Part shown: positions 21,350 to 25,877 of the stretch, one piece after another
How positions within the stretch are numbered: the stretch's first letter is position 1
How the letters are laid out: every line of letters begins with the position of its first letter
Assembly (NCBI GenBank): GCA_945860355.1
Contig: CAMARB010000005.1
Span: 1 to 55,262, forward strand
Length of the DNA: 55,262 bases
Direction: 5' to 3'
From: Chthoniobacter flavus
Lineage (GTDB): Bacteria; Verrucomicrobiota; Verrucomicrobiia; Chthoniobacterales; Chthoniobacteraceae
Position numbers and translations under genes: made by a program
Notes under the pieces: model-generated
Told to the model about the DNA's origin: nothing
Databases searched by the model: none
The model's input: the letters and a program-made list of their open reading frames with translations, nothing else

Positions 21350-24190
<2,841 letters not shown>

Positions 24191-24206: not shown

Positions 24207-25382
24207 TCAGATCAGATCATCTTCACTCGCGTTTTGCACACTGCCACTGGTCTGGTATTCGGTCACGCGGGTTTCAAAGAAGTTCTTCTCTTTCTTGAGG
24301 AAGATGACCTCATCAAGCCACAGAAAAGGGTTTTCCTTCACGTTGGAAAGCGTGGGCAGCCCGAGGCTGGCCAGCCGCCGGTCCGCGTTGTAGTCCACGT
24401 AACTCAGGAACTCGCCAAGGCTCATCCCCACGGCGTCCTCGGGCAGGCAGTCCCGGACAAACTCCTTCTCCAGCTCCACGCCTTCGGCCATGAACGCCAC
24501 GAGCTCCTCGCGGAACTCCGGGGTCCAGATGTCGGGGTTTTCTTTCACCAACTGCTCCAGCAAATACCGGCCCAGCGCGATGTGGTTGGACTCGTCGCGC
24601 AGGGTGTATTGGAACATCTGCCCGATCCCGGTCATTTTGTTCTGCCGATGGATCGAGAGGATCATCGCGAAAAGCGCGTAGAACTGCGTGCCCTCCATGA
24701 CCTGGGTGATTCCGAAGATGGCTTTCGCGAACTTCTGTTTGTCCACCGTCTGGGTCAAATCCATGCCCCGCTTGAGCTCGGGCATGTGACGCGTGATAAA
24801 CGCGTTCTTTTTGCGGATGCTGGGGATGTCCTGAAACTTGGCGGTCACCTCGTCGATGTCGATGTTGAGGCTGCCGATGATGTGGAGCAGGGAATCCATA
24901 TGGATGGATTCCTCGGCGATCTGCCGGAGGGAGGCGTGCTTGAGCTCCGCCGCCGTGAGGTTGTCCTCAATGACGTGGAGCACCGAGTCCCCCACAATGC
25001 CTTCCGCGGCCGAGAAATATCCCACCCCCATCTCGACGATCCAGCGCTCCTTCGGGGAGAGCGCGTCGGAGTTCCACTGGTTGCAGTCCTTGGTCATGTC
25101 GATGACGTCGGGCTCCCAGTGGTTGGCCTTCATCTGCTTATAAATCCGGTAGGCCTCGTGATACTTGAGGGGCAGCACGTTGAGCTCCGCGCTGCGTTCC
25201 CCGTTGATCACCCGCTTCCCGGCCATCCGGGCACGCGCCTTCTCTTTGTCCAGGCGGAAGGTTTTCTGGCCGATGGTGAACACGGCGTGATTGCCCTCCT
25301 CGCGCGCGCCGAATTCGGCGGAGATGTCGGAGGGAATGTCGAATTCGGCGGTTGGGTAAGATTCAAGAACGGCGGTGCTCAT
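24207..25382 (-). CDS. nrdB: Ribonucleoside-diphosphate reductase, small (beta) subunit, without radical tyrosine
   Basis: 391 residues, start ATG 25382 (MSTAVLESYPT). Houses the dinuclear metal centre that starts the radical reaction. Six carboxylate/His ligands can be placed by alignment to E. coli NrdB: Glu127 (SAAEGIVGD, where E. coli has Asp84), Glu158 and His161 (AEESIHMDSLLHII), Glu230 (QVMEGTQFYA), Glu264 and His267 (RDESNHIALG). The radical-tyrosine position, four residues after His161 in the E-x-x-H-x-x-x-Y pattern, is Leu165. Chlamydial class Ic proteins have Glu at the first ligand and Phe at this position and use a Mn/Fe centre. The C-terminus keeps the conserved FFETRVTEYQTSGS segment with the relay Tyr376. 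A cobalamin riboswitch lies in the leader. Confidence 0.93.
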   Translation of the reverse strand: MSTAVLESYPTAEFDIPSDISAEFGAREEGNHAVFTIGQKTFRLDKEKARARMAGKRVINGERSAELNVLPLKYHEAYRIYKQMKANHWEPDVIDMTKDCNQWNSDALSPKERWIVEMGVGYFSAAEGIVGDSVLHVIEDNLTAAELKHASLRQIAEESIHMDSLLHIIGSLNIDIDEVTAKFQDIPSIRKKNAFITRHMPELKRGMDLTQTVDKQKFAKAIFGITQVMEGTQFYALFAMILSIHRQNKMTGIGQMFQYTLRDESNHIALGRYLLEQLVKENPDIWTPEFREELVAFMAEGVELEKEFVRDCLPEDAVGMSLGEFLSYVDYNADRRLASLGLPTLSNVKENPFLWLDEVIFLKKEKNFFETRVTEYQTSGSVQNASEDDLI

Positions 25383-25658
25383 CAGGAATGGAGTGTGGGA
25401 TGGTGTGTGGATCGGACGCGCCCGCCACGGCGCGTTTACAGGGGCTGGCGGATGAAAAAGCAAAAATGCCTTCGCCTCACTTCCACCGCTGATTCCGCGG
25501 CGGCAGGAGTCCGAAGGCGCTGGACACTGCGGTCCCTTCACGGGTCCACAGGCCGAAACTGCTCCTCAGCATCCGTCCTGTCTTTGGCGAGACAGAACCA
25601 GCCTTCAAGAAGCCTTTTTTCCAGGCCGTCTCGGAGGCTTCGGTTTGGATTTTTACTT

Positions 25659-25830
25659 CTGCGAGCAGGTCTTCTGGCTTCGAGGTCATCCGATTCGCCT
25701 CCGCCTTCCCCGGGGCTTCGCTCCAGGTGGCTCAAATCTGAGGTTTCGTCTCTCGTTACAGCGGCGCAACCGCCCGGGATTCACACCCGGTTCCCTATTC
25801 TCCCCCGGGACAAACCAGGGGCACTCGCAG
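25659..25830 (-). promoter_or_regulatory. Cobalamin (B12) riboswitch upstream of nrdBA
   Basis: 172 nt aptamer on the minus strand. The closing stem P1 pairs CTGCGAG (25824-25830) with CTCGCAG (25659-25665). Conserved core elements in order are GTGCCCC, GGGAGAATAGGGAA, GGTGTGAATCCCGGGC, GCCGCTGTAACG and the B12 box AGCCAGAAGACCTGC (25665-25679). The nrdB start lies 276 nt downstream, leaving room for an expression platform; a GAAGCCT..AGGCTTC pair after the aptamer is one candidate but is not followed by a strong U run, so the mechanism is not clear. Expected effect is repression of nrdBA when cobalamin is present. Confidence 0.93.
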
Positions 25831-25877
25831 GAAAGCCCCTCCACCATATGTTGTGGAAGGGATAAGAACTATCGCAA

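Follow-up and report, generated by a model that had tools for sequence, protein, structure and literature searches.

Leucine in place of the radical tyrosine in a class I ribonucleotide reductase of Chthoniobacter flavus: a probable metal-stored oxidant, a Verrucomicrobiota clade and a cobalamin riboswitch

How a class I ribonucleotide reductase (RNR) might hold its oxidant when its radical-generating subunit has leucine at the radical-tyrosine site is the question raised by an nrdB-nrdA pair in a 55,262-nucleotide stretch of Chthoniobacter flavus DNA, here called the window. All features of the window given below lie on the minus strand.

The nrdB-nrdA pair and its radical site

The nrdB gene (24207-25382; open reading frame with ATG at 25382 and stop at 24207) encodes the radical-generating subunit, a protein of 391 amino acids that matched NCBIfam PRK07209.1 (ribonucleotide-diphosphate reductase subunit beta) with 327.9 bits against a cut-off of 309, and Pfam family PF00268, of which it is the only member in its own genome. 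The nearest solved structures by sequence were Chlamydia trachomatis R2c (4d8f, E 1e-76) and the class I R2 6y2n. With a ferritin-like R2 domain, six dimetal ligands, a C-terminal radical-transfer tyrosine and an adjoining nrdA, the product is a class I RNR beta subunit, and the family matches, the structures and the neighbouring gene bear out the same assignment in an earlier note on this DNA. Alignment also placed all six ligands as that note had numbered them: Glu127 (25002-25004, codon position taken from the gene coordinates), the first ligand, which is Asp in class Ia and Ib; Glu158 and His161 in E158-S-I-H161 (24900-24911); Glu230 (24693-24695); and Glu264 and His267 in E264-S-N-H267 (24582-24593).

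The radical site lies four residues after His161. Leu165 stood opposite Phe127 of C. trachomatis R2c (FEEAVHTHTFLYI) in an alignment with 4d8f and opposite Tyr122 of E. coli NrdB (SETIHSRSYTH) in a MAFFT alignment, and codon 165 reads CTG (24888-24890). The earlier note had read Leu at this site and Glu, not Asp, as the first ligand, and had proposed an alignment as the check for a tyrosine; the alignment was run, it placed leucine and no tyrosine there, and both readings stand. A tyrosyl radical at site 165 is impossible, because the residue is leucine. The radical-transfer residues are retained together with the ligands: Trp89 (25116-25118; E. coli W48 and C. trachomatis W51 position), Tyr259 (C. 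trachomatis Y222 position), which shares 24603-24608 with Thr260 (E. coli I234 and class Id Thr position), and the C-terminal Tyr376 (24255-24257; E. coli Y356 and C. trachomatis Y338 position). In Chlamydia, the radical-transfer roles of W51, Y222 and Y338 are established.

The partner gene nrdA (21350-24190) encodes a class I catalytic subunit of 946 amino acids with all catalytic residues present (NLCTE, the active-site Cys pair, TTYYLR and a C-terminal CESC) and a single ATP-cone at residues 40-119 (Pfam 39.8 bits, cut-off 25.8); the closest solved NrdA by sequence is 5im3, of the Pseudomonas aeruginosa-type class Ia. In the window's subgroup, NrdA residues 20-60 carry an insertion in the first beta-hairpin of the ATP-cone, and the RNG motif of other NrdAs is missing, so that control by dATP may be altered. 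Of the intact NrdA with ATP-cone described earlier, the catalytic residues and the cone itself are real, and the word intact is uncertain for the cone.

A leucine clade with its own second sphere

The leucine is not a product of chance or error, since it was found in four genomes of the genus and in 66 sampled relatives from several families. It recurred across the genus (G001-G003), the family and the phylum, filling the radical-site column in 66/66 sampled members of the clade. In a phylum-wide sample of 388 genomes, 126 gave a match to NrdB; identity was 52-60% for most of the strong matches, and every strong match whose sequence was retrieved combined a Glu first ligand with Leu at the site, as did one Armatimonadota MAG (L040). 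A motif search of IMG/VR gave no viral relatives of the Leu clade, and phage matches were at most 37.7% identical. Among 163 aligned NrdBs, first ligand and site residue were Asp/Tyr in 73, Glu/Phe in 25, Glu/Leu in 64 and Gln/Leu in 1 (a degenerate paralogue), and an Asp first ligand was never combined with loss of the tyrosine. Class Id, which pairs Tyr with Glu, is the known exception to the Asp/Tyr coupling (PMC8463856); the rule therefore runs in one direction, from the absence of tyrosine to a Glu first ligand.

A tree of 58 NrdBs, built with both trait columns masked, united the Leu proteins in a single clade (support 100/99) that splits into the window's group, marked by MDSLLH, and a broader one with ADSL(L/V)Y. 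The chlamydial Phe clade joined an Asp/Tyr clade of Pseudomonadota (86/90) and the Leu clade stood apart, an arrangement that would imply either repeated loss of the tyrosine or a reversion to Asp/Tyr. The Asp/Tyr NrdBs of Pseudomonadota belong to the same broad group as the window's protein (about 40% identical), with the Asp/Tyr pair as in diiron-tyrosyl enzymes. The tree suggests an independent origin of the Leu clade, which the AU test did not establish: grouping every Glu row except 6y2n in one clade was not rejected (p-AU 0.94). The Phe/Glu protein 6y2n (PDB) itself sits inside the Asp/Tyr clade of Pseudomonadota, so that tyrosine loss may have occurred more than once, although here, too, a single all-Glu clade was not rejected (p-AU 0.19).

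The single Leu clade spans the Verrucomicrobiota and has invariant second-sphere residues of its own. About three dozen positions set it apart from the Phe and Tyr clades, being invariant or nearly so within it, among them Y122, G128, I129, D132 and H136 near E127, Q227, T232, Q233 and L237 near E230, and T260, N266 and I268 near E264/H267; the invariant positions unlike Chlamydia include G128, D132, H136, Q227, T232, Q233, L237, T260 and N266. In place of Tyr122, the Phe clade and most members of the Tyr clade have Phe. At position 260 the Leu clade has Thr and the other two clades have Ile; in the Leu clade, Tyr259 and Thr260 were each found in 65/65 members. Position 260 corresponds to Ile234 of E. 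coli, which lies in the hydrophobic pocket of the tyrosine, and, four residues before E264, it is also the position of the class Id threonine. In the class Id protein of L. blandensis, this residue, Thr294 (= Glu298-4), ties up the unused tyrosine (PMC6754362). An AlphaFold model built from 37 sequences (pLDDT 80; an earlier model with 6 sequences was poor, pLDDT 61.6) was closest in fold to Chlamydia NrdB (4m1i, TM 0.77/0.89). In the model, helix 1 is interrupted at 127-129, right after E127, where confidence is low, and this predicted break faintly recalls the unwinding seen in class Id. Because of the clade-specific residues, and since the Lys and Trp of class Id are missing, the pocket appears unlike both that of Chlamydia and that of class Id, and the metals are not to be read off Chlamydia.

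Some relatives carry additional or broken nrdB copies. In L134 (G428:C8), a second nrdB (ORF L134_+2_1432, 405 aa) lies just upstream of the Leu-type gene in the same operon; it shows the changes E127Q, H161R, E264V, H267R and Y376V, retains an acidic C-terminal tail, and may be a bacterial counterpart of yeast Rnr4, a beta-prime without metal. In L135 and L136 (G169, G259), a tandem second nrdB on a long branch keeps all ligands and the Leu, with F238 changed to His and Y259 to Asn; by its sequence, it is a duplicated and diverged Leu-type beta. A Leu-type nrdB-like match at G380:C32:10628-11592 falls into two overlapping pieces, a frameshift in the gene or in the assembly.

RNR complement and the cobalamin riboswitch

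RNR is an essential enzyme. Leu-NrdB and NrdA occurred without a class II or class III match in G041, G050, G001, G006, G020, G024, G027, G030, G032 and G034, class II being scored as TIGR02504 above cut-off and class III as PF13597, with divergent RTPR-type class II outside the search; G041 and G050 are complete (99%) single-contig genomes of 0.9 Mb, and G020 additionally carries a distant Asp/Tyr NrdB (L143). Since no other RNR was found, the Leu enzyme would have to be active in these sole-RNR genomes, G020 aside. The genome of the window (G000, 86.5% complete) has, besides the class I pair, a class II NrdJ (G000:C198, 518.8 bits) and gave no PF13597 match for a class III RNR. No PF07972 match for NrdI was found in G000 or 56 relatives, and this absence from 57 genomes argues against Ib/Ie chemistry.

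When the enzyme is used is probably indicated by a feature absent from the earlier note, a cobalamin riboswitch aptamer (RF00174) in the leader of nrdB-nrdA (25647-25843), about 264 bases upstream of nrdB, that matched model positions 1-189 of 189 with 103.7 bits (gathering 31.5, E 6e-25). Between the aptamer and the nrdB start lies a strong hairpin (25455-25518; fold -32.4 kcal/mol, z -2.75), present as a single copy in the genome and followed by AUUUUUGCUUUUU. Hairpin and U-run could be the expression platform or a terminator, and a strict terminator scan did not report them. A cobalamin riboswitch also precedes the Leu-type nrdB in L007, L012, L013, L035, L036, L037 and L115 (L013 and L035 being from the same genome). 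Ten relatives' loci without a gathering match gave no weak riboswitch at E 0.5, and a simple pattern search gave no NrdR-box-like motifs. The class II enzyme was present in 4 of 5 genomes with the riboswitch vs 9 of 27 without it (one-sided p 0.07), which is a trend only. In G018, nrdA and nrdB are on separate contigs with a cobalamin riboswitch near each (G018:C59:518129-518322 and G018:C36:84226-84421), and the NrdA match at C59 is split into two pieces.

A riboswitch before nrdB-nrdA together with a B12-dependent class II enzyme in the genome implies use of the class I enzyme when B12 is scarce: B12 would turn nrdB-nrdA down through the riboswitch, and the class II enzyme would take over at plentiful B12. 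Streptomyces, an actinobacterium, likewise has a B12-dependent class II RNR. Its nrdABS operon is a class I operon under a B12 riboswitch (Borovok 2006, as cited in PMC5962746) and resembles the window's operon in this respect, but encodes a class Ia enzyme.

The probable oxidant and its alternatives

We consider it probable (about 0.8) that the one-electron oxidant is held in the dimetal centre and not on a tyrosine, and that the enzyme is functionally class Ic. Four observations make this the best-supported reading: tyrosine is missing from the site, Glu is the first ligand (also the case in Ic and Id), the residues for radical transfer have been conserved, and no RNR besides this enzyme was found in several genomes. 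Two metals would be bound by E127, E158, H161, E230, E264 and H267 and, on reaction with O2 or a reduced form of oxygen, would give a high-valent centre. As in the class Ic enzyme of Chlamydia, that centre could then take an electron out of NrdA, whose paired tyrosines and catalytic cysteine would supply it by way of W89 and Y376; Leu165 would be a redox-inert filler, the counterpart of Chlamydia Phe127. The closest known system is the class Ic beta of C. trachomatis (4d8f, 4m1i), which likewise has Glu as its first ligand, fills the tyrosine site with a redox-inert residue and carries the equivalents W51, Y222 and Y338. The window's protein differs from it in having Leu for Phe, about 38% identity, a clade of its own and its own invariant second sphere, and its locus differs in the gene order nrdB-nrdA, the cobalamin riboswitch and the single ATP-cone in NrdA. 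The class Id betas (NrdBi of Flavobacterium johnsoniae, Leeuwenhoekiella blandensis and Facklamia ignava) share the Glu first ligand, the Thr four before the fifth ligand and an expected metal-based oxidant, but their sequences are distant (phmmer E about 1e-7 to 1e-12), and the window's protein lacks both their Tyr at the site and the Lys and Trp near ligand 1 (signature from PMC6754362).

Which metals would fill the site is a narrower matter. We lean moderately towards Mn(IV)/Fe(III) as the likeliest, Mn/Mn and Fe/Fe being the alternatives. Class Id enzymes have a Glu first ligand with two manganese ions, and a comparable dimanganese (IV/III) centre, formed by means of superoxide or peroxide, is an unlikely but live alternative here, because the second sphere differs from that of Chlamydia and Thr260, at E264-4, where the two other clades have Ile, stands in the place of class Id Thr294 (PMC6754362). 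The predicted break of helix 1 after E127, where class Id unwinds, would fit such a centre too, but the model has low confidence at 127-129. Moreover, class Id retains its tyrosine, its Lys (ligand+4) and Trp (ligand+7) are here Gly131 and Val134, and both sequence and fold are closest to Chlamydia Ic. A Glu first ligand alone does not fix Mn/Fe, as it is also found in R2lox and in diiron monooxygenases (PMC4118035).

A diiron enzyme with its stable radical on another tyrosine (Y122, Y235 or Y259) would fit the invariance of Y122 and Y259 in the Leu clade and the contrast with the Phe clade and most Tyr-clade members, which have Phe in place of Y122. We nevertheless regard it as highly improbable: class Ic and the tyrosyl enzymes of the same family have Y259 and Y235 as well, the coupled Asp-to-Glu change favours the Ic/Id type, and we know of no class I beta in which the radical has moved to another residue. 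That the protein is inactive, plays an accessory part in the manner of yeast Rnr4, or works as an R2lox-like oxidase is hardly credible. The missing radical tyrosine, taken by itself, would fit, and a ligand-less beta-prime does exist in L134; yet the window's protein retains all ligands and Tyr376, is paired with nrdA as the one PF00268 protein of its genome, belongs to a type of enzyme that is the sole RNR found in several genomes, and scored 53.5 bits with the R2lox NCBIfam, far under the cut-off of 194.

A metal-stored oxidant, as the earlier note had proposed, thus remains the best-supported reading. Its further idea of an under-studied branch is sustained by the clade's own residue signature and by the literature searched (mostly outside subscription journals), in which we found no paper on the Leu clade and no biochemical work on a Leu-type enzyme, the Chlamydia enzyme being the only class Ic RNR with a cofactor description. 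The leucine as such, however, was already on record: Leu, Ile and Val in place of Phe in R2c proteins were documented by Hogbom 2010 (as cited in PMC3824934), a Protein Science survey reported that many class Ic-like betas have a redox-inert residue, an eLife survey reported Phe or Leu in class O, and a 2021 review defined class Ic by Phe/Glu. What the present comparison of sequences appears to add is the Leu clade, its distinctive second sphere and the B12 switch. That the Leu clade is a separate, B12-controlled class I subclass with its own tyrosine loss and a metal centre or activation unlike that of Chlamydia (e.g. a dimanganese centre in a remodelled Thr260 pocket) is a tentative proposal that we hold to be doubtful, though not far-fetched.

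The Leu clade offers a large natural set of tyrosine-less enzymes, in a mostly non-pathogenic phylum and with a different pocket, and its metals bear on whether the pair of Asp-to-Glu change and tyrosine loss predicts a metal-based oxidant. For C. flavus, the locus suggests that B12 may decide whether a tyrosine-less class I or a class II RNR is used.
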